A stretch of 64,000 nt of DNA from Pyxicephalus adspersus (lineage: Eukaryota; Chordata; Amphibia; Anura; Pyxicephalidae): positions 47,040,163 through 47,104,162 of the forward strand of contig NC_092869.1 of assembly GCF_032062135.1 (NCBI RefSeq), given 5' to 3'. The notes under the pieces are model-generated. The model saw only the letters and a list, made by a program, of their open reading frames with translations, made no database searches and was not told the DNA's origin. Position numbers and translations under genes: made by a program. Numbering within the stretch: the stretch's first letter is position 1; each line of letters begins with the position of its first letter. Positions 2,133 to 53,381 of this stretch are shown here, piece after piece.

Positions 2133-4806
2133 CTTGCAAATAAACAAATGTAATGATCTCCAGAGATAGCATTGAGCACAATGGCGATGATGACGATGAT
2201 GATGATGTTTTTTCTACACATCTCAACACACCAACACTACAATTGCTGCCTGACATAAATCCTGCATGTAGTGAGTTATTAGTACCCTGAAAGTACAATT
2301 CTGAGCTTCCCCATCCCCGCACAGTACAAATTACCCAGTCATTAAATATTACCAGAATGACCAATATTCTGCTCAAATTTGACTTCATCACAAATCCAAA
2401 TCCAATTCCAACACCAATATTGTATACTGTGTTAAAAGAATCGAAAAGAATCATCGCACAAATAAAAAATTGCTATATGCCAATATATAATATATATACA
2501 TACAGGTGTTCTACACTCTCATTCATTGTTTGGTATAATTTCGTCGCCTTATGATGAAAAATGACAGCAGGAGTCAGGAAAGTTAAGTGTGTGTAATACG
2601 GAGCCGAACTGAAGACTGTAACAGCTGCGCTAAGAAAATTCACTGCGCATTACACTCATTACAGGAAAGATGAACCATATAGAAACTCAATTAACAAGTA
2701 GATGAAAAAGAAAATTAAAGAAACTGAGTCAGTGTATAGCAAACGACAATGGGGACTGGCAGCACCAAGTCTCATCTGTCACCGAGGAAATCAGTCCATG
2801 CAAAGCATTGGAAGTACATCTGTTGGACTAATCAGAGCAAAATCCGCTGTGCCCACCATTGTCTGATTGTAAGAACATTCCTCCGAAAGGCCGGCGGGGA
2901 GTCAAAGAAACTTTTTTATTGTTGGGAAATTCAAGAAAGTTTAAATTCCTGCCAATGTTTTCACGGTCACACTTCCCAAGAAAACATATGTCGGGACCAA
3001 TTCTTCTCTAACAACCCATCGGAGCTTCCCAAAATATTCACGTGGGAGTAGGATAAAATCTGGTACTTTGCTGTTTCCAGAAATTCCATATTTAATTTGA
3101 TTTACTTGATTTGTTTGGACAATAAAAAAGAATAATATAGACAAATAAGGAATAGAGTATTTGTTTCATTTATTTATCTTTTACTCAGGCTAGAAAAAAA
3201 AAAAGCTGCAATGACTTCAATTATCAATGGGAGCAGAAAATCAATTTTTTTATTTTTTTTTATGTTTTTGTGTGCACATTGTTAACTTTCCAAAATGAAC
3301 AGAATTTACTCCTCTACTAAATTATTCTCATTGTTAGAACATAAGGCAAGTGTAAGATTTATTTCCTGATATTTTATGTTTTTTAGACAATTTATGCATT
3401 TTCTTAGGAAATTAGTGGTGATATAAAATCCCCGATATTTATAATATTGTTTTAAACATGATTACAAATACATACTTAACTAGTTTTATGCAAGTAAGTT
3501 TTTTGGGGGAGAGGTTTTATGCAAGTAAGTAAGTTTTAAGTAAGTAAATCATCTCTGCTGTTTTTTCACCAGTCAAGGTAAGTGGAATTTTTTTGGGGGT
3601 GAACGTTCCACTTTAATAACCTCAAATTTAAGTGGGGGCTTCTGCAACACAAGATATTCTGAAGTTTTTTATAATTCTTCCATATTTTATTACCATTTCT
3701 CACACAGAGACTACACTTCGGTTCTTTGAGGGCAATAGGCATGACCACCCAAAAGGAAAAGTAACATCATAGAGAAAACTGTATTCTCAACAAACTTTAT
3801 TATCCGTTGCACTGCATTTTATTGGTTCATCATAACTCTCTTAATACCTACCTTGTTTTGTCTTGTTATGTTTTAAAAGTCACAAAAACACAGCAAAAAC
3901 TTTCCTGTGTTTTTTTTTCATTCTATAGCAAGCCCCCACCCCCCGCCGTCCCAACACATGGCTGCTTCCGGGACTTCTGTGCACAAGGCATGGCATCCTG
4001 AGGCGGACTGACAGAAGACCAGGAGCCCACAGATAAAGCAGAACAAAGGATCCTAGCAGAGGTAAGTCCAGAATACAGAACCAGAGGTCATTCACAGGAA
4101 ATTAATCCACCAGACAAGGTTTCTCAAGGATAAAGAGTTGGGGTTACAGACAAAGGTTGGTCCAGGCAGCAAGCAATAAACGGGTCAGAAATAGGCAGAG
4201 TCAGCAACAGTAAATCTAACAAATACCCCACCAGCAGCAGGTCAGCCTAGCCTAATGCTACAACTGGGGACTGTGGGCAGAAAGGCGAGAAAATCCTAAG
4301 AGCCAGTGACGATACAGAATGTAGCCAGGGACTAATATATTACTAAAATGTGCTGGGGATGCTGAGAAGATACATCTCAGGCTGCACGGCTAAAGGGAAG
4401 CCGGGGATGCTGCTATTTCCTTGGACAGAGTTAACCGGTGTGTGTGATACCGCAGTGGCATACAGCATAACATTTTTTTTCCTTCTAAGATAACACTTTT
4501 AGGTTCAGGTCCACTTTATTGGTTAATGCAAGTGCTGTTGGGGTGAAATAAAATTGTGCTAAGTTATTTTAGTTATTAATACTGTTTTAGTAGTTGGTTC
4601 AGTTTAAGACACCGGGGTATAATCAAATACTAACGTACCTTATAAGTAACAATTGCAAAATTACCCTAGCATGTAAAACAAAAAGATACTTGGTATGCTA
4701 CCTTTAAAATATATCTGTATATAAAATATTGCACAGTCTTATACACTGTTTAGCTTTTACATACCTTAATTTTACATCTATTAATATATCTAGCTATCTC
4801 ATTTAT
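2133..4806. other. No gene seen; unique DNA with minor repeats
   Basis: Contains a short GAT-rich run near 2183-2207 and GTAA runs near 3490-3550. A block at 2560-2720 (acagctgcgctaagaaaatt and surroundings) is complex and could be regulatory. From about 3930 to 4450 the sequence is richer in CAG/GGCAG words (for example aggcagagtcagcaacag) and looks like a decayed interspersed repeat that I cannot classify. Open frames of up to 100 codons show no domain. Confidence 0.35.
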
Positions 4807-5640: not shown

Positions 5641-6204
5641 TTTAATGTATGAAAAAATCTACAAATGTCCTAAAGCTCCAATTCAAACCAATCTGTCTTC
5701 AAGGGGAGGGCCTTGTGCTTCTATGTATTATATTTCTCAAATATGCCTTGCAATGGTTCCCTTGGTTGGACACAGACTTATGTTTGGCTTCTTCCAACAC
5801 TTAATTGAAATTTGCCAGGTAAGTAAAATGTTGTAGCTTATAAAAGTGCCCAACGGACAACATTACACAATCACCCAGCACAATTACCACTGTTTGTATA
5901 TCCAAAACAGAACCAATTTTCAGGACATTAAAGGTACTATTTATAAAGTTTATTACAGATTTGAAGTATGATTTATTATATAATTTTAAAATTCCAAGAT
6001 ATGTTAGCTGTTACAGAAACTTTGTACATTCAATCTCAAAATGTGTTCAACGCATTTCACAACATAAGCTTCCTCGGGACTGATGAGACTGGTATATCTG
6101 AAATCATATCTACCAAGTAATAAATCCAAAAGAAACAGCCACAACTTTTTCAAGATGGCAAATTCAAAAGGGGGCAGACCAGGCAGTGTCCATATCCAAC
6201 ATCC
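5641..6204. other. No gene seen
   Basis: AT-rich unique sequence without recognisable elements. The 80-codon frame over the left part has no motif or splice context that would support it. Confidence 0.35.
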
Positions 6205-8195: not shown

Positions 8196-8735
8196 TAGAA
8201 ATCGAGTTGCGCGATTTGAACTCAAGTCCAACTTATGTCACCTAATGAATGACTTGCAACTCGACTTGGGGGTGTTCCCTAGCAACTTGCAACTCGACTT
8301 GTGACTTGCGACTTGCTTTCTCTGCTGACAGGTTTCTCTTGATTTCTTTGCCTTCAGCTGTCAGAGGAAAAAAGGTAGAATACATGAAAGGTGGGAAGGA
8401 AGGCAGTGAGCGTTCTGTAACAATGCCTTCCTCCCCACCTTTCTTGCATTCTAAGTCCACAGCTTTCTCTTCTTACAGCTAAAGGGGATGGGAGGCTGTG
8501 TTGCAGAACTGCCTTCCCCCTTCAGCTGTCGGAGGAGAAAGCTGTGGACTGTTCCTGTGCTCAAGAACAGGATCAGAGCTCTGTTTCTATATGGGAACAA
8601 ATAGGGATAAATGAAGTGACTTGACTTGGGACTCGACTTGGAAGAATTCTTGGTGACTTGAGACGTGACTTGGGACTTGGTGCCAATGACTTGGAACTCA
8701 ACTTAGACTTGAAGGGTGATGACCTAGTCCAACCT
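8196..8735. repeat. GACTTG-rich repeat with foldback core
   Basis: Both flanks are packed with degenerate GACTTG/AACTCG words: left cttgcaactcgacttg twice; right gacttgggactcgacttgg, gtgacttgggacttgg and gacttggaactcaactta. The centre is an inverted repeat: 8386-8405 pairs with 8424-8443 at 19 of 20 positions, and weaker pairing extends outward about 40 bp on each side. This is likely a MITE-like element whose ends are simple repeats. The 72- and 77-codon frames inside are shadows of the palindrome. Confidence 0.65.
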
Positions 8736-10562: not shown

Positions 10563-10996
10563 CATTTCAATGGAATTCATGAAACCAGTTTTCAATCAAG
10601 ACACAAGTTTTTATGGCATATCTTTGTGTTTGATGCCACTTGAAATCAGTCCCAAGGCAAAAAAGAATATGAAATAGAAGAAACATTTTTATTCTCCATG
10701 GGCAGCCAATGCATTTTGAGGTCAAGCCAATGGGGGTGGGGGGTCAGCTATATAATTTGAAAAGGGGATAGAAAAATATGGTGGATCCATTTGAAAATGT
10801 CCTGAACAAGGTTTTGATCCAAAGGGAGCCAACACATTTTGGGGGATCTATAATTCCCCCTTCCTCAGAGCTAACAATAAATATATAACAACAGATGTAA
10901 CTAATGAATACAGAACACCATCTGTGTAATGCTGCAAATGCTTTGCAATACAAATTTTGTTTGTATTGACATATTTGCATTACCATTCTCTATTGA

Positions 10997-11654: not shown

Positions 11655-11765
11655 CCTAATGGCTGTGATCTCCTGAAGAAGCAGTGGAGTGAATCTGCGA
11701 AACGTGTTGGAAACCTACTCACAGCCTTGAAAACGCAAATCTTTTAATGGGACTTTTTATGATTA
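11655..11765 (+). repeat. Dispersed repeat with hammerhead-like core
   Basis: Continuation of the repeat split by the hAT MITE. CTGAAGAA at 11673-11680, a four-base stem GCAG (11681-11684) with CTGC (11695-11698), then GAAACG at 11699-11704. The order matches C3-A9, stem II and G12-A14 of a hammerhead ribozyme. Stem I is weak. See the best copy at 40411-40450. Confidence 0.55.
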
Positions 11766-14125
11766 TAAATTATATGTCAGATCTGATAGATTTTGCTGTG
11801 AAAATCTCTCATTTAAGTTTCTTACGTTTAGTGAAGAGGGTTCCTTTTTTGTTTCCTCTGCTTCATTTTGGATTTACCTAAGGGATGCGGAAAATTGAAT
11901 TATATTTATTAGGATCCAAAATATATAATGTTAATTTTGTGAAAAATAGTAAAATAATTTAATATTCAGCAAATAAATTGTATATTGGTATATATATATT
12001 TTACTATATTTCAGTATATGTGACTATAGAGTATATGTTACAACAAATATGGAAACTCCCCCGAGTCTCTACTTTCCCTTTCAAATAATAAGGGTCTTGA
12101 ATATGGATGTGGCATATGTACAACAGAGGAATATTTCATAGCTAAATAGCTATATATATGACTGTATATCAGAACAGGGGGATTTATGCAACCCCCAAAA
12201 CATGTCAGCTCCGTCTGGTGCATACAAATCAATACTTTATTTGGGACTTTAATTAGAGTGGCATTTTTATTCCCTATTCTAATTCTATAATACAAAAGCT
12301 GGCGGCCCCCCATTGGCCTGACATACATTTCGAAGCCAAATCTAGTATTTTCAGTGGAATGGGGGATTAGGCCATCTGTGAGGTTTTTATTACTCATTTA
12401 AGACAGAATGCTTACTTGCTGTCTCAATGACATTTTGTTGGGTGCCGGTATAGAAGGTGTTACCTCTATAGCAAATATAGGGAAGTCTTGTTAGCAAAAT
12501 CTGATTAGTTATTTTTCTAATGATGGTCTGAAAACCCAAAAGACAGATTGAATAAATGATTATATCACAGTTTAGGAAAGAGGAGCCAGAGGGAAGCAAA
12601 TAGACATGTTGGATCTCTGCAGAGAGATCACTGCTTTTACACTGACAGCAATAGTTCTTTTCTGTAGGATGCTGGCAGGTGGTAATCTTTTCTACTAAGG
12701 CTGTGGCTGCTTTATAGATAAACTCTACTGCAATACTTTGCTTTTTTTGGTGAATAATTCAGTGAACAAGCATGTAGTCTTTCTTTTTCACAATCCAACA
12801 CTGTAAAAATTCAGCATTCAACAAATTACTGTGTGTTATCCAATGTCTGATCCATCTCATGTAGGTAAACGTAGCTGAACTTCTCTTTGAGTCCCGAGGA
12901 AAGGAAATAAAAAATAAAGCGTATTGTTACTTCTCTTTCATCAGACCACACACTGTGCTAATCAGTACTGCCCAGGAAATCTGTGATTGCAATCTTCACG
13001 CGTGGGGTGAGCGCGTCTGTATCCATGCTACTTCTTAGTGCTGGAAAATGATCGATTGAACGATCATATTCAAATATTTTGTCTGCATTCTTATTGAACC
13101 ATGCTCAGCTTCTTCTGCATTTCAAATACTGCACACATCAGATCGACACACAATGCAATAATCTGACATTCCCCCTCCACAAAGCACAATGATAACCTTC
13201 GTTCATTTCATTATATCAGCAGGTCACCCGCAGGATGATTGCTGCCCTAATTAGGTGGAATTAAAGGAAAACTTTATGTTATTTTCAGAGAGTACACATC
13301 CTGAATTCACTACATTCTTTATAAAGCAGCAATTTGGATTATGAAGTTTTTAGAGAAAAAACAATTTCACTATATGACCCTAAATTCAGCCATATAAGTA
13401 CAATTTGCAATATATTTATAAAGTCACAAACATTGGCTCCATCATTGAGTGGTCAGACCGTATTCCTGCAGAGAACAGAGCACAAATAATAATGTAAGTG
13501 CTGTTCATGTACTCGTGTTAGGAGGTCTTGGCTTGATGACCCACCACCGAAGATCCATGATTGCCTTTACTCGGAATAAATGGGTTAAAATGGAAATAAA
13601 TTCACCCCAGCACCTCACCACATCATTTTAGGAGGCTCCAATCAGTGCCCTTTAGGAACATGGCCCAACTCCCTTTTCCTAATAGATCTTAACTAGTTTA
13701 GTTGTATACAAATAAAGGTTTCTAATCTGTATCCATGATCCAGCACCTTGGGTTCTAATCTAGAGATCCATCCATATTTAATCCAACCTGTTTTTTTACA
13801 GTTTGGGGAATCCTCGTGTTTGTAGTGGACCTATTCCTTACTCATTGGTAGGTGATGAACTTCTGCCAAAATTTACACGTACAGCAATATGGCACATTAA
13901 TGTAAGTAAAAATAAAAGAGAGAAATATTAGGGGTTTAGAGGAAAAGTTTTGAGGTTTGTATTGCATATAGTGAAAATACAATAATATATCACATTGCAT
14001 ATTTAGGAGTGTTAGTGATCCCAAATCCATGCACTCAGGGAAGTATATTGGGATATCTAGACAAATGAAGTTTTGCTCTTACAGAGTCCTTGCGTTAGTC
14101 TGAAGGAACAATGTCAACACAGCCA
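11766..14125. other. No gene seen; unique DNA with one regulatory-looking block
   Basis: At 12930-13280 the sequence is complex and repeat-free (cttcacgcgtggggtgagcg, aatgatcgattgaacgatca, gattgctgccctaattagg) and could be a conserved element. The remainder is AT-rich. The 119-codon minus-strand frame at 12038-12397 has no recognisable domain. Confidence 0.35.
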
Positions 14126-14151
14126 CGTTTCGCCCACTTGGGCTTCTTCAG
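14126..14151 (-). repeat. Hammerhead-like core motif
   Basis: On the minus strand: CTGAAGAA, stem GCCC, loop AAGT, stem GGGC, then GAAACG. Stem II is a perfect four-pair helix of different sequence from the copy at 11673, which argues that pairing rather than sequence was kept. The stem III segment (acgtggc) deviates from ACGCGTC, so this copy is probably inactive. Confidence 0.5.
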
Positions 14152-15337
14152 GGGAAAACATAAGATATAACAAAGGTGCTAGTTTCATTGCATGGAATTG
14201 ATTTATGAGCATGTCTTCCATTATTTAGTCTGGGATGCAGTACAAAGGGGTACCAATTGTAGCAATAGGTAATCAAATCCAATCAAGGCTCTAGTTTGCC
14301 CAATCAAGTAGTTTAGGTTTGCTGCTATGCCGTACAGGGTTAGTGTAGACTGACTTAGTAGTCAGAGCAAGCTGCTTCCTGTAATGCAGCTAAATGGAAT
14401 CCGGCTAGCTGCTGCTTCCTGTTCTGTTGCCAGTCTCCCGGTGTTCTCCAGAATAAAGGGGCAATATGGATATATGGCCCAGATTTACTTGTGTATACCT
14501 GCCCTGTGGAGACAACAATTAGACCTACATCCTGGTGACTTTTTAGTTTTTTTGTGTTTAGGTCTGCTTTGACAAATACCAAGCTGGGCTCCTAAATACA
14601 CATTTAAGAAATAAAATTAACAGAGGCCTAACTTTTGTTACACAAATAAAAAAAAAAAAAAAAGTTGTTCATATTGATGATCCAAAACTTTACTAAGGGA
14701 ACATAAAGGCACCCTAAAGTACAATTCGTCCCAAACTTTTTTTAACTTTAAGTCCTTGTTCGTGAATCAGGTTTGCTTTAGCTATATCACTGTTTAGGAC
14801 TCCGGGTTTTCTATGTGACCTTGCAGCATTGTATCTTCTTACTGCAATGCAATCCATATGACCTTGATTCAAACGTTTATGTATCTATTACTGGATACAT
14901 ATTTCTATGGAGGATGGTTTGTTTAAAGGACATCACAATACGAGTAGGTATATACAGAGTTGAAACTCGCACTTTAATGCTTTTATTATCCAAACTATTT
15001 ATAAACAAAAAGCAAAAAAAAAAATCTTTCCAAATTCCTGTCTGCACTGAGGAATACTAGCAAGTGAACTACTTGTATTAGAAAAGGCAGGCAGGAGATG
15101 GGGTAATACCAGGCAAAGTATTACTGAAGTTACCCATGAGTACTGCACTTTCTGTAACCCCACCAATCCCCTCTTTTCCCCAATGTGAACACCTGGGAAC
15201 ATATTAGATTGACAACATGATGTAATGCAGTGAAGCTTGATTTAACTGTGAATAACCTCTCAGTTTGTGCAGAGATAATTAAAAAATAGATAATGTGCAG
15301 TAATGCAGTGAACAGCTGCTTATGATACAACGTTCAT
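14152..15337. other. No gene seen
   Basis: Mostly unique. The right part of 14340-14580 ends with ctggtgactttttag and ggtctgctttgac, like the end of other TTAA-type repeats in this window, but the boundaries cannot be set. A poly-A run lies at 14648-14663. Confidence 0.3.
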
Positions 15338-15440
15338 TGATGAAGCGGGAGGAGTACCCAAAACGTGTCGGCTTTATGTATTCGCTATCATTTGATTTTA
15401 AATTGGAATAAACCTGTACCTTGTTTTGAACATATTTGTG
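15338..15440 (+). repeat. Dispersed repeat with hammerhead-like motif and AATAAA
   Basis: TGATGAAG, a GGG/CCC stem, then AAAACGTGTCGG (G12 changed to A), followed about 45 bp later by a polyadenylation-type AATAAA. This layout recurs in the GAAACGYGT repeats of this window and fits the end of a retroelement. The core has two substitutions, so activity is unlikely. Confidence 0.45.
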
Positions 15441-17799: not shown

Positions 17800-17880
17800 A
17801 ATATCCCTGAAAAAGCTGGAAACTCAACTGTGAAACGCGTTGGCATTTTATGTATCGGTTTCAGATAGAATACAATGTTT
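17800..17880 (+). repeat. Dispersed repeat with degenerate hammerhead-like motif
   Basis: CCCTGAAAAAG (17806-17816) and GAAACGCGTTGG (17832-17843). The 3' half is the best match in the window to the A-C-G/C-G-U stem III of compact hammerheads, but the U7-G8 area is changed and stem II does not pair cleanly. Confidence 0.45.
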
Positions 17881-20623: not shown

Positions 20624-21128
20624 TTGCAAAGCTGTATCTCAATTTTTAAATATATAAATGGTCCATATAGGGAATTCACTTCTCACTTATTCACCATAAG
20701 ATCGTTACAAAGCACAAGGGGACGCTCTTTGTGTCTGGAGGAAAAGAAGTTTATGCTCCGGATAAGGAAGGGATTCTTCACTGTAAGGTCTGTGATAATG
20801 TGGAATCGGCTTCCTCAGGAAGTAGTTTCAGCAAGTTCTGTAGATTGCTTTAAGAAAAAGCTGGATGATTTCTAGAAGCACAGAATAAAACTGGGTAATA
20901 AGGCTTTAAAGTAAAGATAACAGAGACTGCTGATCCAGGGAACATCTGATTGTCTCATGGAATCAGGAAGGATTTTTTTCCCGTTGCAGCACACTGAACT
21001 ATGCTTTGTATGAGTTTTTTTGCCTTCCTCTGGATCAACTATGTCTATGGGGTTTTACCTGGGATATGTTTGATTTCCTAGTAGTTGGACTTGATGAACT
21101 TTTTTCAACCTAACTGTAACTATGAAGC
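20624..21128 (+). mobile_element. LINE 3' end: ORF2 C-terminus plus 3' UTR
   Basis: An 83-codon frame (20624-20875) has the hallmark C-terminal block of CR1/L2-group LINE reverse transcriptases: IFKYINGP, then GFFTVRS, then WNRLPQEVVSAS and FKKKLDDF. After the stop come about 250 bp of untranslated sequence ending ttttttcaacctaactgtaa. The same family is present inverted at 43656-44040. Truncated at the 5' side as usual for LINEs, so no endonuclease or catalytic RT motifs are present. Confidence 0.75.
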
Positions 21129-22191: not shown

Positions 22192-22857
22192 CCCCAGATC
22201 ATAACACTGCCCCCACAGGCATAGCGCTGCATCCATAGGCACCCCAGAAAATAAGTCTGCCCCTACAGGTACCCCAGATCATAACACTGCCCCCACAGGC
22301 ATAGCACTGGATCCATAGGCACCCCAGAAAATAAATATGCTCCTACAGGTACTCCAGATCATAACACTGCCCCCACAGGCACCCCAGATCATAGTGCTGC
22401 ATCCAATGGCACCCCAGAAAAAAACACTGCCCCTATAGGTACCCCAGATCCTAACATTGCCCCCATAGGCCCCCAAAACCATAGCACTGCCTCCACAAGC
22501 ACCCCAAATTATAACAATACCCCCCACACACCTCAGATCATAACACTGCCCCCACAGGCACCCCAGATCATAGTGCTGCATCCATTGACACCCCAGAAAA
22601 AAAACTCCCCCAACAGGTACCCCAGATAATAATACTGTCCCCACAGGTACCCCAGATCATAACACTGCCCCCATAGACACCCCAGATAATAATACTATCC
22701 CCACAAGCAATCCAGATCATAACACTGCCCCCACAGACACCCCAAATCACAACAATGCCTCCCACATACCCCAGATCATAACACCGCCCCCACAGGCACC
22801 CAAGATCATAACACTGCCCCCGGGGGCACCCCAGATTATAGGACTGCCCCCACAGGC
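22192..22857 (-). repeat. 30-bp minisatellite growing out of Tc1 transposase (array B)
   Basis: About 22 units of a 30-bp sequence, directly continuous with the transposase relic; the first unit is the VMIWG codons of that gene. Minus-strand unit translation is VMIWGACGGS. Many units alternate in a higher-order pattern: a standard unit (cagatcataacactgccccc), a variant with atagcgctgcatccata, and a variant with ccagaaaataagtctgcccc. Because 30 is a multiple of three, a 121-codon minus-strand frame (22279-22644) survives by arithmetic rather than selection. The right edge ends acaggcttta, similar to array A. Confidence 0.9.
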
Positions 22858-31637: not shown

Positions 31638-32420
31638 CATTAAAAGATCGGGCATTGGGCAAATCTATGCTGTCTATTGTTGCCTGCAGACACTGTTGTC
31701 AATAGATCTAAAGGATTTAGTTAGAATACTTGCTTCAGTTTCTATCAATGTCCCTGGTGCTGGGATCTATCTTTGTGTGTCATTCTGACCAATCTCCATA
31801 AAAACATAAATGCTCAGGCATGCCATGCATTTGCGTCTTCAAAGACCCTGCAAGTACAGTACATACTCCCTATCATTCTGTCAGTATTGCATAAAACTCT
31901 AAATGTCCTAATATGAGCTGGCAACAACCATCATTTATATCATATAATATAAACATATTGTCGGACCTTTCCAGCTTTATTTTTATGAAACCACTCAATC
32001 TTTCACAGTCACTTAATCCTCAAATCATAGGAAATAATTGTCTTGTAGTCCCAATATAAGTATTGGGAGGGCTAAAGGGACCCTTTGAGATAACATGGAG
32101 CTTCACCCTATTCACCAAGCTGTGATTTATTCCTTACAGAGTGAATTCTTTTAGCAACTAACTCCAATGTCTCTTATATTAAAAGGACAGAGTATCTGCA
32201 ATGTATTTTGTTGCTGATCCAGCTACTTCATTGGGTATGGTGGTTCCTTTACATAGAGAATTTTGGCGTCCTTTATAATATATATATGATATAAATCTTT
32301 CCTAAAAAGAGTAATTCTAATATCCACTAAACATTTTCTGATAAAGAATCATTGGCTACCATTTAAATATGTAGAATAATGGGTAAATTTTAGATTCATG
32401 GCTTTAGAAATAGACCACAT
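31638..32420. other. No gene seen
   Basis: Unique AT-rich sequence with no recognised element. Confidence 0.3.
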
Positions 32421-32600
32421 TGGGCCTGATTTATTACAGCTCTCGAAGACTGGAGAAGATAGACTATCATCAGCGAACCAGCAAACCTGGAGAGAGTTTC
32501 TTAAAAATCATTTCAATGTTTTTAATCCTGGACCAGATCTTTTCCAAGTTTTCTTGATCATCAAGGTTTCATCATGATTGTCTATCTCCTCCTTTTCTCC
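32421..32600. mobile_element. Foldback MITE family X, partly degraded
   Basis: Left end tgggcctgatttattacagc, then actggagaagatagactatc and aaccagcaaacctggag. The right half is recognisable only as ccaagttttcttgatcatca and gattgtctatctcctcc; the terminal gctttaataaatcagg part is missing. Confidence 0.75.
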
Positions 32601-33738
32601 CCATCTCCTTATACTTCCATTTTTGGTGGCCCTCTGAAGAAGTCAATTGACCATTAGTAGTAGACCACGCAGCATTTTTGAGTATGTATACAAGACCTAG
32701 TACTGCCCTTAAAGAGCAATTCAAGCCAAAACAAACATTTATTTAATTTTAGGAAACAGCAGGGAAAGGTTAGCACCCCATGTATAGATTTTGTGACTTT
32801 CTGTGTCCCATTGGAAAAAGTTATCTTTACATCCCCTGGAGCAAGAACAGTAGGTGGATAGAAAACTCCCAAAAGAAGAGGACAGTTGTTAACAAAACAG
32901 ACACCCCTATTGAAAGATTTTCTCTGTATCCTGTCATATGTATGCCCCAGTAATGTTTTCCCAAAGCCTATGATCATCATGAGAAGCAATGAGTGTGATC
33001 TGCTATATAAGGGACACAAAACAGCAATAAAAAGACAGAGGTGCAAACATTTTCAAACCACACCTAAAACTTAAAAAAAGGCACTGATTACATTTTAAAT
33101 AAAGTTGTCATGAAAACATTACTTGAGCTGCCACTTTTGGTCTTTTAGTAGTTTCCTTGATATAGATGGCTACCATACCTTCAGCTTACACCTTCAACAA
33201 ATATGGAGAAATAAAAGTCAGAGCAAGGTAAAAAATCAGAAATATCATATTTCCATATTAGAAGTATTGCTCTATGTTGGTGAACTATGAACAGCCAAGA
33301 AACCGGCATCTTCAGATATTCACCTGGCAGCCTATATGCTCCTCTCCAGACAGATGCATTTCAAATCACTGTAGGGCTCTCACTATCCTACCCATGGAAA
33401 TACAAAGCTTGGCATTGCAAAAGAAGAACCAAGCTGTGTTAAGGCTAACAATGTTTTTCTCAACTGTTATGTGCTCTGAAATAGGAGCAATTTTCTGAGT
33501 TGACTGCTGCTAAAGAAAATGTTCAATGGGGGGTCATATCTCTGTATCAATACACCGAATTCAAACACAAAATATTATGCTTCTGCAGAGATCGAGAGGG
33601 GATAATTTTTCTAAGGAAGAACCTTTAATACTCACTACCCACTAGTGAAAATATTTGATTTTCTTGGCATTACATTATGCAATTCCATAGGGATCACCTG
33701 GATAAAAAATAAAAACAGAGGGATGAAGCCCAAAGCAG
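32601..33738. other. No gene seen
   Basis: Unique sequence. A 130-codon minus-strand frame (32654-33046) is Cys- and Leu-rich without a recognisable domain and has no supporting splice context. Confidence 0.3.
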
Positions 33739-33967
33739 AATGGGTCTGATTTATTAAAGCTTTCCAGGCTTGGAGAAGATAGAGTATTTTAGGAGAATCA
33801 GGGTGATCAAGAATACTTGGAATGGATCTGGTCAAGGATTGAAAACATTGGCCAGATAATAGCAACTGATTTTAGGAAATCTATTCCAGGTTTGTTGGAT
33901 CACGCAGGTCCTCCCATTATAGTCTATCGTCTCCAGTCTTGGAGAGCTTTAATAAATCAGGTCCATT
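33739..33967. mobile_element. Foldback MITE family X, complete copy
   Basis: Near-palindromic. Left aatgggtctgatttattaaa and gcttggagaagatagagtat; right ctatcgtctccagtcttgga and gctttaataaatcaggtccatt. The arms run inward to about 90 bp each (tcagggtgatcaagaatact against ggtttgttggatcacgcagg). About 229 bp. No coding capacity. The best reference for the copies at 6205, 15999 and 32421. Confidence 0.85.
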
Positions 33968-34154
33968 GCATAGTACCTAAAGCTTAACATAAAGCTACAC
34001 TCCAGTTTGACAAGGAGACACTGCCATATATATTGACCCAATTTCCATCTTGGCATTTCTACACAGCTGTTTATACAGGATTGTAAATCTGAATGTATAC
34101 ATTGATTGTACTGGAGACAGAAAACAAGAGGTGCTGTAATAAACATTATACATA

Positions 34155-36027: not shown

Positions 36028-36165
36028 TCTGAAGGAAGAATCTAACGTTCACTGAAGCATTCCCTGGTGGAGAACCAATTACGCCACTGAAACACATGGG
36101 CCTGGAATATTCTCCAGCAGGGAATGTTTCAGTGAATGTTAGATTTGCTAATTTATAAATACTAT
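36028..36165. mobile_element. Foldback MITE family Y, copy 1
   Basis: Palindromic ends: tctgaaggaagaatctaac and ttcactgaagcattccctgg against cagggaatgtttcagtgaat and gttagatttgct; the right end also keeps atttataaatact. Centre accaattacgccactgaaac. Same family as 36517 and 63556. Confidence 0.75.
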
Positions 36166-36516
36166 GTCCATGAACAGACCATCACCCAACATTCCTGATT
36201 CCAATAAACTTAGGAGTTGGTATTTTTACATTGACAACCTTTGGGGACCGTGTCAGTAGGCCTTGGTTCTTGTCTATGACATGCTTTTGTAACTTGAGTT
36301 GAATTGACATTGAGTAGTACCTATGGCATTTCAGGGGCTGCATTTTGCAGTTTTGTTTAAAGTTGCTGAATTATTTTGTCGAAGTGATTTGCCATTTAAG
36401 TGCATGCATGGGCTTTGGAATATCCTTTACTTAACCTCAACCAATGGTCCATCAAAGTAAAATGACTTCAAATGTTGCAATACACCTGAAGAAGCTATGA
36501 ATATCACTCCAATGGT

Positions 36517-36658
36517 TCTATTTATAAAGCAGAGAATCTGACATTTCTTCAAACATTCCCTGATGGGAATCAATTACTGTCATTGAAACACAGGGACCTG
36601 GAATTCTCCACCAGGGAATATTGGAAGGAATGTCTGATTCCCTGTTTTATAAATACTG
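36517..36658. mobile_element. Foldback MITE family Y, complete copy
   Basis: Left tctatttataaagcagagaa, then tctgacatttcttcaaacat; right gaaggaatgtctgattccct, then gttttataaatactgta. The arms are inverted repeats of about 50 bp around attactgtcattgaaacaca. 142 bp, non-coding. Confidence 0.85.
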
Positions 36659-39782: not shown

Positions 39783-40251
39783 GTGCCTTCTTGTAAAATG
39801 TGTAACAAACATTTGGCATGAGAAATGAGTTTGTTACATGGGAACACAACTCCGTCTACTGATGGCCACCATCCATGCACATTGACCATCACACAAGACC
39901 ATTTAGGAGCAAATAACCCATCATTACTAACTCAAAATACTTTAACTTGTAAAAGGGGGAATAGAGGTATACAGTCTGAGCCTATGTAATTCTTTTTAAC
40001 TACATTTAAAAATATCACACCATAGATACATATATAAAATTTAATTTGGATTGCTATTTTGTAATGTAATGGATTGCTAATGATTATAGTGAAGTTTGAC
40101 GGTTTTTTTTACTATTTGAATATTTGAATCAGTATTTTCTCCCCATTATTCTAATGTAAAAGTAGGTTTATTTTCAAGTATTTGAAAAAAAAATCAGTTT
40201 TTATGTTGCATTTGTTCCTCTTACATCACAGACTATTAACCTTTGTATGAG

Positions 40252-40783
40252 GTAAGTATTAAAATAGGGAACAATAGAAAAAGCAGGTATTTTTGGCACA
40301 AATAGTATATTGTATTACATTCAGTGGATAATAGTAATACAGAACATAACAGGTTTAAAATAGGCCACAATAACTTCCAATCATAGATATTATTCCTGCT
40401 GATCGTTGTACCCGACGCGTTTCACCCTATTCGGCTTCCTCAGGGGTAGCGGTTTGTCAACATATGTTTGGCACTTGTAGTTATTACGTCTAAATTAATA
40501 GGAATTTGCCATATTACATTGCGTAATACATACAGGTAAGTTGATATTGTATATGAATAAGTAAATAAATAGGTATTCCAATACATCTTGCCTGGCTATA
40601 CATCCCAAATTGTAATAAATGCAATGTAAGTAAATACTGTCACATACATAAAAAGATTCAAATAAGAATGTTAGTGTTTATATATCTGCTGAATTTTATA
40701 TATAACCACTGAATGTAAAACAATATACTATTTGTGCCAAAAACTCTGCTTCTTCTCTTGTTCCTTATTTTAATACTTTACTT
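40252..40783. mobile_element. Inverted-repeat unit enclosing a hammerhead-like core (PLE-like?)
   Basis: Arms of about 75 bp: 40252-40327 and 40706-40783 are inverted copies. The inner 38 bases (ccactgaatgtaa ... actatttgtgccaaaaa) differ at only about one position, and the full arms agree at roughly nine of ten. The spacer of about 380 bp holds the best hammerhead-like motif of the window on the minus strand (40411-40450). Penelope-like elements are known to carry hammerheads in their terminal repeats, which may be direct or inverted; assignment here is inference. No reverse transcriptase is present. Confidence 0.6.
40411..40450 (-). ncRNA. Hammerhead ribozyme-like motif, best copy
   Basis: Minus strand order: TACCC, CTGAGGA, a stem II region closed by an A:T pair with two more C:G pairs (one G:G mismatch), GAAA, CGCGTC, GGGTA. 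TACCC pairs fully with GGGTA (stem I), ACG with CGT (minimal stem III), and cleavage would follow the C of GTC. CTGANGA and GAAA are the invariant hammerhead core. The very short stem III resembles newt satellite and Penelope-type hammerheads. Stem II has one mismatch; whether it cleaves is unknown. Confidence 0.5.
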
Positions 40784-41635
40784 AATAAGGGTTGGCACTT
40801 AGTTTTACAAGAACTGATACTAAACTGCAACCCCCACTAACACTTCAAATACTTTGTATGAACAAGCACTGACACAGCAGTCCAGTCCACGGCTAGCTCA
40901 GTGCCCCAGATGAACCCGTCCATAAGCGGAGAACATGAACGTTTCCCATACATTTCACAAGCTGATAGACTTTCATTATAAAGCTGGCTGCAGTTCTGAA
41001 CATAACAGTATATACAAAAACAAAGAAAAATAAAGTTCAGAGGTCTATTACTGGATGCTATTTGCATTGGTCATTCAGTGTGTCTTGCAGCATCGGTTCT
41101 CCGGAGTCTCAGTACTTATGGAAGAGAAAATTGTTTGTATTCTCCATAATGGCGACATTACACTGACAGAATTACAGCGCAAGCAAATAAAATTTATGTG
41201 ATTGAAAAATGATGCCTTCTCCCTACTCTCATGAATCCTGCCTGCAGTCCATTAGAACATTGCTTTTATGACCACAAAGTAGTTTTTAATGTAAATCCTA
41301 CTACGTGTGTCTGGCCTACCTTCTGCCACCTCCTCAGAGAGGTCTCAGCTCGTACAAACCATCAGATCATTTTTTTGTTTTTCAGCAGAGAAGATAATAA
41401 TGAACAATAAGCGGAACTGCCTCTCGTACGTATCAAGTACAGAACATTATAATAAAATGAACATTTGTGATTATCACCGCACAAAAATGGGAATAAAAGG
41501 CGAAGCTTCCCTTCATGCAGAATCAACCCCCCAGTTCATGCATTTTATTCGAGCACAACACGCCCCCACTCTTTTATTGGTACACTGTATTTATATTCCA
41601 CCAATATATAAGGTAAATTGGGGGGGGGGGGACCA
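40784..41635. other. No gene seen
   Basis: Includes a complex block near 41150-41290 (acagcgcaagcaaataaaat, ctctcatgaatcctgcctgc) that may be regulatory. The long plus-strand frame 41307-41852 (181 codons) begins here but runs through the SINE and minisatellite and has no domain. Confidence 0.35.
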
Positions 41636-46628: not shown

Positions 46629-47245
46629 TAGGGATGAGCAAGCAAGAATATTAGGTTTGATCTTGCAGGGAATCGGGCCTTTCTCGCTTACCGAAAATGT
46701 AAGCAAGAACGGCCTTCTGATTCGCAGAGAGGTCGAGCTCTTGCCAAAAAGGAGGATTTGCATGATGCAGCCCTGGAAATTCTCTGCGATCCCCGGGCAC
46801 TAAAAGTTAATTAACCTCCAGTGCCCCAGGGATCACACACTCTTCTCAATGATTGCAGCCACAGCTGAAATCATTGAGAAGATGTCCAGCACAGGGGAAT
46901 CTCCTGGCATTGTAATATAAGTATCTCTTACAAATCATACATTTATATCTGTAACATGTATCATTTGTAAGAGATACTTATACTACAATGTCAGGAGGTT
47001 CTCCTCTGCAGGGCATCTTCTCAATGATTGCAGCTGTGGCTGCATTCATTGAGATGAGGGTGCTATCCCCGGGGCACTAGAGGTTAATTAACCTCTAGTA
47101 CCTGGGGATCGCGTGAACAGGAGGATTTCCAGGGCTGAATGCAGCTCTGGGAATCCTCCTGTTTTAATTTCCTCCTCCGATGGTTACGCGAAACCGGTTC
47201 GCCCAAACTTCGTGGAACCATTGGAAGTTCGATTTGGTCTACCAT
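46629..47245. mobile_element. Large foldback element with about 200-bp arms
   Basis: Left arm about 46751-46935, right arm about 46963-47163, loop 46936-46962. The inner pairing gtatctcttacaaat / atttgtaagagatac is perfect; further out tctcaatgattgcagcc, aggttaattaacctc, atccccgggcac and ggaggattt are matched across. A secondary 22-bp hairpin sits at 47116-47163 (two mismatches). The outer parts (tagggatgagcaagcaag; cttcgtggaaccattgg) are not inverted copies. A long non-autonomous foldback repeat of unknown superfamily. Confidence 0.8.
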
Positions 47246-50780: not shown

Positions 50781-53381
50781 AAGATCTGGATCATACGAGG
50801 ACCGGTCACTTTGTCATAAACATGCTATAGGGATGTTAGTGGAAGGAAGGCTGTTTCTGGCCATTTTGGTGCACCAAGTAGGACACCCTGGGTGCTGCTC
50901 CCCATCCCAACCAGAAAGACATCCACACACCGTCATGTCATACTAAACAAGAACATATGAAAATTTAACAAGATCACCCCAACAGTCATCACCTTCCGTG
51001 ATGTATAGGTCACTGTACAACACGCCATGAAAAAATTGTGCCATGGTGCAAGAACCTTTCTGAATAAATATACAATGAATTCATTGTTTTGTAGGGGAAT
51101 GCATTATATACAGTTTTTAGTAAACCTAATGAGAATTGTACATATTTTGCCCAATTAGCTGTTGAGATATTTGAATAGCTTGCCATTAGTGGTGGGGGGG
51201 GGGGATTCTGCAAGTAGAAAGGCAAGCACCTAGCAATAAGCATACCTACCATAACCTCCTGTTACATTCCAATATGGGAATGTTCTGTTAGACAGAAGTT
51301 GGGAAAGTGTGTAGCTTGCTTTGGAGTGCACATCTTTTCCGCACTCTAATCCATATCCCATTACTATGACAGACAGGTGGTTTAGCCAACAAAAAGGTCT
51401 GAAGGATACACATCTCTCAGTTTACTTTTATTCTTTATACTTTCCCCTTACCGCTGAACATCTTTCTTCCATTATCTCAAGCCCCCCAATGTCTAATATA
51501 TGATGATATGGATTGTAGGTAAAGAATAAAACTTGAGCCCCCTCTCTTGAACATAAAATTTCTTTAAAAAGGTTGTCATCACGAGAAAAGACAAGACCCA
51601 GACTTTTCTACTTATATCCACTGCAATACTATTACATTTATTTTGTAGGCCCTAAAAGGGATTTGGTGATGTGTGGAGTACAATTACCCATCATCACTTT
51701 CCTTTTACCATTCCAGTTGTAGTAAATTAAACTTTGATTGGATGCATTGGCTAAGTTTTTTCTATATAATTGCTTTTTGTACATCCTTACTCAATAGGCC
51801 CACGTAGATAACGTTTTCATGTGTATATTAATCTCATGGTTACCTTTGGGGTCAAATGCATTAGTGATCCTAATCTCATGCTGCTGAGGGATTTAATTAC
51901 TGTTTGGCAATAACCTGACTTGCAACAGATTGATTCCAATCCCTCAGAAGCCTGAGATTAGGATCACCCGTATAGTTTAGCCCTTACTATGTGTAGCGGA
52001 CAGGTGTTGCATATATTAGAGTCAGGTTACTTGTGGGAAAAACACAAACTTGTTTTATATCTGTTCTCTTCTTATCCTCGTGCCAATAACAATGAAGATC
52101 TAGCTCCTCCAAGTTCAGGCCACTAATGCATTTTACTTTTAAATTAGGTTACCTTGCATGTATACTAGGCATTCTTTCTGGTGGATTGTGGTATCAACAT
52201 CAGTGAAGGTCCAAACAGTCGCAGGATCCAGATTCTTTCTATATTTTCTCCATACATAAATAGGTTTATGCAGCCTATGACACATTCACAGTTTCTTCAC
52301 CACCAGACACTTGTCTCTCTTCTTGATGTGGTTTTTCCCACCCTAGAGCCTCTGATGGAAATGTGTGAAAGGATGAGAGGTGTCAGCCTGGCGGTGAGGA
52401 GTTAATTTGTGGATGTACCATTAGCTGAATGGATATATAAAGAAACTAGATCTCGTCATTCTGTGGTTGCACTCTTTGATAGATGTGGCAACTGGGGAAA
52501 TGCGCATGCCCTGGTGGCCAATACTCATCAGAAACGAAGCTGGCCGGTCCTTAAGCAGTGAATTCTTTTGGAAAGGAACTAATTCTACAATGAATCAGTG
52601 GCATCTATTTGGATTGCTCATCATTGTTAGCAAGGTCATGCTGAGGAGTGGCAACTCGAACACTATTCTATTGCTGGAGTAAAAAGATAACCCCAATCAA
52701 GATATTGTCAAAGATGGTTCCAAATACAATAACCACCATACTCCAAATGCAAACAACTAGGAGAATATTCTCTTTACCAGAGTAATGGTAAAACCAATTT
52801 TCGAATCTGATCTAAAGTGTTCAGTTTGCTCAAACCTGGTTTCCATAGAATTGCAGATGAAGTGCAACATTGACCTGGACACCAAAAGAAGAATTAGTAG
52901 ACAGAAAGTCTACTTTTTATCATGCTGTAGACAAACAACCTCCAAAAGATGTCCAAATAAGATAACAAACAAATACAAATTGTGTATTTTGTAAGTACTA
53001 TTTATGTACAAGGTATAAAAATAATGCCTACACAATAGATGTCTCTTAGAATTAGGTTTTTATGGGGAGTGATGGTCCAACTGCCCATCAACTTCGCTAC
53101 TGACGAACCTCTTTTTGGTTCCAGCAAAAGTCTTTGATCAGGATGTGGTAGAAGGAGACCAAGCGTCTCCATGTTAATGAACAAAGTCACTTGATCTCAT
53201 GGCTTTTAGTTCTGACATCTAACTATAATTTAAAAATCAATCCTGTATATCCGACTCCATGATGTATGTCCAATATCTTCAGTATAACACGGCTAAGCTA
53301 TTGTTGTGCCATAGTCTAGAAATAAGAAGGGGTTTTTTATGCCTTTTTAATTTTATTTTAGATATTTGTAAAATTGACACT
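50781..53381. other. No gene seen
   Basis: Unique DNA with a G-run at 51195-51204. At 51850-51970 an inverted pair (gatcctaatctcatgctgct; cagaagcctgagattaggatc) forms a palindrome of about 110 bp that may be a small MITE. Frames of 60-74 codons lack domains. Confidence 0.35.

Follow-up and report, generated by a model that had tools for sequence, protein, structure and literature searches.

Penelope-like elements (PLEs) are known to carry minimal type I hammerhead ribozymes in which stem III is almost absent and which, as Cervera and de la Pena in 2014 and Lunse et al. in 2017 reportedly described, are possibly dimeric and lie dispersed in their thousands in animal genomes. Minimal hammerheads in PLEs are likewise already described in the accessible parts of two further reports (PMC7761336, PMC6155905). 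How Penelope elements integrate is still debated between self-priming, put forward in 2013, and priming on both strands, observed in vitro in 2024. In the first case, self-priming on an antisense template was proposed for Penelope of the rotifer Adineta vaga, and the accessible text gives inverted pLTRs, a tail on one pLTR and short duplications as the typical structure of animal Penelope elements (PMC3846280). In the second, both target strands were cut and extended by a Poseidon PLE; according to the accessible part of that study, reverse transcription begins at internal positions of the RNA, two of which flank the tail, and the start sites used in vitro were alike on both strands (PMC11167929). 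Since hammerhead mutants left insertion unaffected in that system and the ribozyme required protein, the hammerhead need not take part in the insertion step (PMC11167929).

The window, that is, the whole stretch of 64,000 nucleotides of Pyxicephalus adspersus analysed here, carries a single insertion of 601 bp (40251-40851) that is flanked by a target-site duplication of 10 bp, CTTTGTATGA, a 10-mer that has one further occurrence in the window, at 21004. We have little doubt that this feature is a PLE insertion. The complete statement, namely a single 5'-truncated, two-sided PLE insertion that arose by priming on both target strands, is given a probability of roughly 0.68. The insertion is composed as follows.

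40241-40250, no strand: left target-site duplication CTTTGTATGA, an exact 10-bp match to 40852-40861
40251-40694, minus strand: longer PLE fragment, 5'-truncated, with its short (tail-less) 3' end at 40251; supported by 36 further core copies
40254-40330, minus strand: left inverted arm, the 3' region of the longer fragment; 77 bp, 89.6% identical to the right arm
40408-40449, minus strand: minimal type I hammerhead; Rfam RF00163, 26.9 bits
40690-40706, no strand: head-to-head junction of the two fragments, placed by the limits of homology, its exact base not fixed
40703-40779, plus strand: right inverted arm, a second short piece of the same PLE 3' region; placed by the arm alignment
40780-40851, plus strand: AC-rich tail extension of 72 nt, at the right end only; common to tailed ends and absent at short ends
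40852-40861, no strand: right target-site duplication CTTTGTATGA, an exact match to the left copy

One duplication encloses both arms and the tail. At each outer end stands a 3' region of the same element, short on the left and tailed on the right. Homology with other copies ends near query position 443, which corresponds to window position 40694, and the right arm starts near 40703; a 10-bp AT palindrome (40696-40705) lies inside the junction. Most copies carry about 90 bp between the hammerhead side and the arm that are missing from the window copy, between query positions 126 and 119. A first-pass annotation of this DNA had described 75-bp inverted arms about 90% alike, which proved to be real when a gapped alignment was also run (the 77 bp listed above), and had set the right edge at 40783, short of the end of the insertion at 40851. 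The arms are two inverted pieces of a PLE 3' region and not transposon termini. An early guess of a TAAG duplication and the idea of a palindrome invaded by a PLE were both dropped once the outer duplication had been found.

The minus strand from 40449 to 40408 reads TACCC-CTGAGGA-A-GCC..GGT-GAAA-CGCG-TC-GGGTA, corresponding to a 5-pair stem I, CTGAGGA, an unpaired A, stem II (GCC/GGT), GAAA, CGCG and UC, so that the order, the 5-pair stem I, the minimal stem III and the invariant core named in the first pass are all in place. The core (C3 U4 G5 A6 N7 G8 A9, G12 A13 A14, A15.1, U16.1 and H17) is complete in the window copy. A9 does not adjoin stem II directly, as an A intervenes, and stem III is almost absent, with A15.1-U16.1 closing a palindromic CGCG loop. 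Judged from the sequence, cleavage would be expected 3' of C17, at position 40414. The Rfam model Hammerhead_1 (RF00163) matched at the core; the E value is 2.4e-4 when a 651-base stretch is searched and 0.024 when the whole window is. The check with the Rfam hammerhead families proposed earlier was therefore positive as to the match and negative as to the threshold, since 26.9 bits lie under the gathering score of 34 bits; no gathering score at all was reached within the window. A model from this genome gave 55 bits for the window hammerhead, the window sequence being part of the training set. A descriptor combining the core with a stem I of at least 4 pairs and a stem II of at least 3 (G-U allowed) found a single match in the window, with 5 pairs in stem I; 300 Markov sequences of 64 kb yielded 0.047 matches each, and 0.02 with at least 5 stem I pairs. 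The pattern CTGANGAAG..GAAAC was matched four times in the window compared to 0.03 times per Markov sequence, and 0 of 60 such sequences reached four.

Three more PLE-type hammerheads were observed in the window at 11667-11714 (plus), 14119-14157 (minus) and 17801-17847 (plus), scoring 38.3, 29.6 and 28.2 bits (E 1.9e-8 to 1.2e-5) with a model from the same genome; at 11673 an 8-bp GGCTGTGA/TCACAGCC pair could lengthen stem I. Weak, possibly decayed hammerheads of 15-16 bits lie at 10825-10874 (minus), 15331-15375 (plus) and 6043-6083 (minus).

Two observations would suit a chance resemblance to a hammerhead, namely the Rfam score under gathering and the poor fold of the isolated piece: folded alone, 51 nt around the hammerhead were not more stable than shuffles (z 0.24), and the lowest-energy fold of this piece engages part of the core in other pairs. 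The genome argues strongly against such a coincidence, which we regard as practically negligible. The motif CTGANGAAG..GAAACGYGTYGG is present at 3,507 places (1806 + 1701, searched as CTGANGAAGN{2,32}GAAACGYGTYGG) compared to 0 (0 + 0) for the reversed control. The motif pattern played no part in finding the 37 aligned copies, of which 25 keep the full core with three letters allowed at H17, whereas for 12 well-filled columns drawn at random the mean is 5.6 intact copies and 25 is reached by 0 of 2000 sets; a core varying freely, which would have spoken against the first-pass annotation, was thus not observed. Mean conservation was 0.90 for the 21 motif columns and 0.84 elsewhere; of 10,000 random draws, 210 were at least as conserved as the motif columns. 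Directly before GAAA, 20 of the 37 copies have C, 16 have T, among them the window, and one has G, and on these counts the T of the window looks like CpG decay.

The stems, which also speak against chance, covary. With the first A left unpaired, pairs 1 to 3 of stem II form in 39, 34 and 32 of 42 among 43 distinct motifs, compared to 13 of 43, 5 of 42 and 29 of 42 in the other register. Shuffles reached the value of pair 2 in 33 of 2000 cases and that of pair 3 in 0 of 2000, pair 1 being uninformative; in stem I, 8, 116 and 62 of 2000 shuffles reached pairs 4, 3 and 5, respectively. Covariation was analysed after aligning the window with 35 of 40 loci (L062, L063, L064, L082 and L095 were left out), with invariant columns fixed by the search pattern and shuffles that ignore relatedness. 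Pairing cells amounted to 79.2% compared to 71.5% in shuffles (0/500), and cells changed on both sides to 24 compared to 11.4 (0/500). The number of pairs with two-sided change was 5 versus 4.2 (160/500), that of further pair types 17 versus 14.0 (29/500), and the covariation score was 0.280 versus 0.179 +/- 0.020 (0/500). The true register gave the best pairing and covariation score among all slides.

The unpaired extra A after A9 occurs in 33 of the 37 aligned copies, and genome-wide A9 is followed by A and then G at the 3,507 places, compared to 103 places with a different base after A9. This nearly fixed A may explain the low score from the standard Rfam model.

The search of the 1.44 Gb genome with the 532-bp query returned 121 matches from the best 40 of 467 candidates scored, so that the copies studied are the best-scoring ones. 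From these, 36 further core copies were fetched (L025/L030, L035/L036 and L049/L051 are halves of one locus each); together with the 3,507 exact motif places they agree with the many copies anticipated in the first pass. With the window minus strand, on which the hammerhead lies, taken as the sense strand, coverage in the 36 copies is near complete around the hammerhead and drops stepwise upstream to a handful or none, and therefore bears the mark of 5'-truncating reverse transcription. The copies are 5'-truncated at differing places and several have one arm only. As a separate observation, a 39-bp piece of the arm (query 88-126) repeats between the hammerhead and the 3' end in steps of about 76 bp and in varying copy number; nine copies (L024, L026, L029, L030, L034, L044, L046, L048 and L050) carry extra repeats of this kind.

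Two kinds of 3' end exist in the family, one short and one continuing into the AC-rich tail, and both occur among copies without a recognised second arm. For the two-sided copies, window included, 9 of 12 showed a duplication scoring at least 9, compared to 1 of 132 mismatched flank pairs. These nine duplications are 9-17 bp long, three of them with a mismatch, and the copies span 611 to 3,917 bp. L028 represents a tenth case, with a 14-bp duplication containing one mismatch and a second side that is hardly more than tail. All ten two-sided copies with a duplication, window included, clearly have exactly one tailed and one short end. Three of the 13 two-sided loci do not fit cleanly: L052 and L053 lack the duplication and break off on the right within the element, and L058 could represent two insertions, because its two arms come from different subfamilies and a duplication is absent. 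In the other loci, duplications scoring at least 10 and above all 20 controls were found in 6 of 21 tested (L019, L028, L031, L044, L050 and L060); the remaining 15 of the 21 loci without recognised second arm showed no duplication of this standing. By eye, L031 and L060 show the duplication followed almost directly by the truncated element. Two peculiarities were seen on the 5' side: in L019 a G-rich filler of some 60 nt stands between the duplication and the truncation point, and in L050 an inverted internal piece of the element directly follows a duplication of 14 bp.

These ends bear on the possibility that the feature is a MITE or another DNA transposon with terminal inverted repeats (TIRs) that carries a hammerhead. 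The 75-bp inverted arms would be in line with this, as would the other inverted-repeat elements in the window. Nevertheless, we consider it very improbable. The two equivalent termini, with a spacing constant apart from deletions, that are the hallmark of TIR elements and MITEs were not found; instead, the ends are unequal with a tail on only one, the spans vary from 611 to 3,917 bp and the duplications in length, one-armed 5'-truncated copies have duplications of their own (L019, L031 and L060), and long copies contain GIY-YIG sequence. The first-pass annotation had taken the locus for a distinct, short non-autonomous PLE relative with inverted ends. This part of it has to be given up, as the arms are inverted pieces of the 3' region of one PLE, and the variable truncation, the one-armed copies and the range of spans do not describe a separate family with inverted ends.

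Inverted-repeat elements, perhaps MITEs, were observed elsewhere in the window at 46786-47112, 32418-33968, 36038-36655, 8376-8550 and 51864-51967, the largest arms among 25 of 46 pairs measuring 157 bp. Two minisatellites (1461-1842 and 22233-22857), about 20 kb apart, have related 30-bp units.

Comparable structures were found in other PLE subfamilies of the genome. The first 41 listed motif places represent 39 loci, which were fetched with 1 kb upstream; L064, chosen as a pair, was left out of the 39. An inverted copy of the hammerhead or downstream sequence was present upstream of the hammerhead in 9 of the 39 loci compared to 9 of 200 segments drawn at random from the window, its own element included. 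One locus, L063, has an arm at the very edge of the criterion and a second, opposite hammerhead upstream. A shorter motif pattern gave 3272 + 3245 places (control 282 + 253). A hand count of its first 100 places yielded, for neighbours less than 2 kb apart, four outward pairs, one pair facing the same way and no inward pair, and two inward pairs among these places are 2.5 and 3.2 kb apart. Three of ten two-sided loci of other subfamilies had a duplication scoring at least 11 (L097 with 14 bp, L100 with 13 bp and L092 with 11 bp). In each of these three the offset is short on one side, at 0 to 26 nt, and amounts to 78-134 nt on the opposite side; the scores of the other seven were not above controls. 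The 90 controls had a maximum of 10, except one value of 159, which is taken as homologous flanks.

The family is assigned to the PLEs because, in copies of it, part of a GIY-YIG endonuclease lies upstream of the hammerhead, which agrees with the Penelope kinship suggested in the first pass. The search for a parent with GIY-YIG, also suggested there, found PF01541 over the Pfam cut-off in L053 (E 8.7e-6) and L104 (E 5.2e-5) and under it in L103 (19.9 bits). The endonuclease piece of L053 returned 151 matches from the best 150 of 3074 candidates scored, and such matches lie upstream of the family core, in the same sense, in L024, L045, L052 (both halves) and L054. In L052, two halves of about 2.6 kb each, 84-92% alike, stand in inverted orientation, and they include the coding pieces. 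The longer copies contain RT-like in addition to endonuclease pieces, the ORF material consisting of broken pieces between stops that were each looked at apart. The RT evidence for PLE identity is weak: Pfam RVT_1 reached E 0.051, under the cut-off, for one RT piece, and five other pieces matched no RT family. By eye, the RT-like pieces contain what we take to be a YIDD box and PLE-like words. A piece of L103, 240 aa long and containing the GIY-YIG stretch as well, matched an uncharacterised lungfish protein with E 7.3e-14, one of 3 proteins found in the search with this piece; a protein search with a piece of L053 gave no match, and no meaningful match emerged when three pieces were compared with PDB sequences. 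In a Pfam scan of 40 of the window's 213 ORFs of at least 65 aa, no RT or endonuclease was found at E <=0.05. Seven viral contigs match the motif pattern, none of which looks related when judged by eye from motif context alone, and the arm 18-mer had 0 matches in viral contigs. Taken together, endonuclease, hammerhead, tail and truncation pattern fit a PLE. Further PLE features present are 5' truncation combined with a target-site duplication, and an inverted pLTR with an optional tail on one side in the ten duplicated two-sided copies.

The endonuclease pieces also bear on a retrozyme-like satellite, in which tandem hammerhead monomers are moved via circular RNA. The type I architecture, the very weak stem III and the palindromic CGCG loop resemble the dimer-cleaving amphibian retrozymes, as the accessible part of their description has them (PMC7229834). 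At the locus, no tandem array of hammerhead monomers was found, and the long copies have an endonuclease piece upstream, which makes this origin extremely improbable.

A PLE insertion by priming on both target strands would proceed as follows. The PLE endonuclease would cut both target strands a few bases apart, and each target 3' end would prime cDNA synthesis from either of two sites inside the RNA, of which one would give the tail and the other none. Both cDNAs would stop early and be joined head to head. The hammerhead would lie within an untranslated region of the parent RNA, where its putative cleavage probably takes place as a dimer or with the help of PLE protein; in the dead window copy it is a passenger, and the arms are not its product.

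Priming on both target strands explains the layout best. Its rival is self-priming, in which an antisense PLE transcript makes the inverted part and the hairpin product is then inserted. In the accessible text of the paper that proposed it for this layout, the argument came from palindromes at inverted junctions (PMC3846280), and both the 10-bp AT palindrome at the window junction and the arms of L047, identical over 97 compared sites, would suit it. Nevertheless, the window is the only one of nine two-sided copies with a palindrome of at least 10 bp near the inner arm edges, which are BLAST ends and hence rough, and 9.6% of 900 random draws from the same loci gave one as well; the other eight have none. 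In addition, self-priming needs an extra rule to explain why a tailed end is paired with a short one in 10 of 10 copies, a combination that two priming events at two start sites give, and we consider self-priming unlikely. The sister arm is the nearest relative for only 5 of 20 arms from ten two-sided loci, and a single source RNA is therefore not established.

More tentatively, we suggest a fixed asymmetric rule, by which the two target strands prime at different RNA start sites, one always and the other never giving the tail, together with a hammerhead class that has a nearly fixed extra A10. The 10 of 10 duplicated copies with mixed ends speak for a strict strand rule, and the in vitro data, which in the accessible part of the report show no difference in start sites between the strands, speak against it (PMC11167929). 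If the rule were true, the genome would be a fossil record of two-sided priming. Since thousands of motif places and copies with readable duplications and unequal ends are available, the two models of Penelope integration can be tested by counting. A literature search found no statement of the one-tailed, one-short rule in numbers and none on A10 in PLE hammerheads; key papers, among them those of 2014 and 2017, lay beyond its reach, and novelty is not claimed for either.

An ordinary stem III is found in the hammerhead of chrysanthemum chlorotic mottle viroid. Its plus-strand hammerhead has an extra A10 between A9 and stem II, which, according to the accessible part of the report, moderately lowers the trans-cleaving rate and leaves the hammerhead active (PMC3705267). 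The viroid hammerhead is an unrelated RNA that shares the extra A10 with the window family. Type I hammerheads in interspersed repeats have also been described for another amphibian, Xenopus tropicalis, the likeness resting on the description as far as accessible (PMC3088659).

The endonuclease-containing Penelope of Adineta vaga resembles the family studied here in its 5' truncation, inverted pLTRs, one-sided tail and GIY-YIG domain, and the duplications of 8-10 bp in several of its copies compare to 10 bp in the window. It differs in a shorter tail of 31 bp, compared to 72 nt in the window copy, and in its low copy number; these points are taken from the accessible text, and the words hammerhead and ribozyme are absent from the main text of that paper (PMC3846280). 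In PAc, the Poseidon element of Anolis carolinensis, inverted genomic copies are not discussed in the accessible part of the paper and the tail has 30-40 bp, in contrast to the 72 nt of the window. As in the window family, PAc has a hammerhead, situated in the pLTR-ORF region, and an AC-rich internal start of reverse transcription (PMC11167929).
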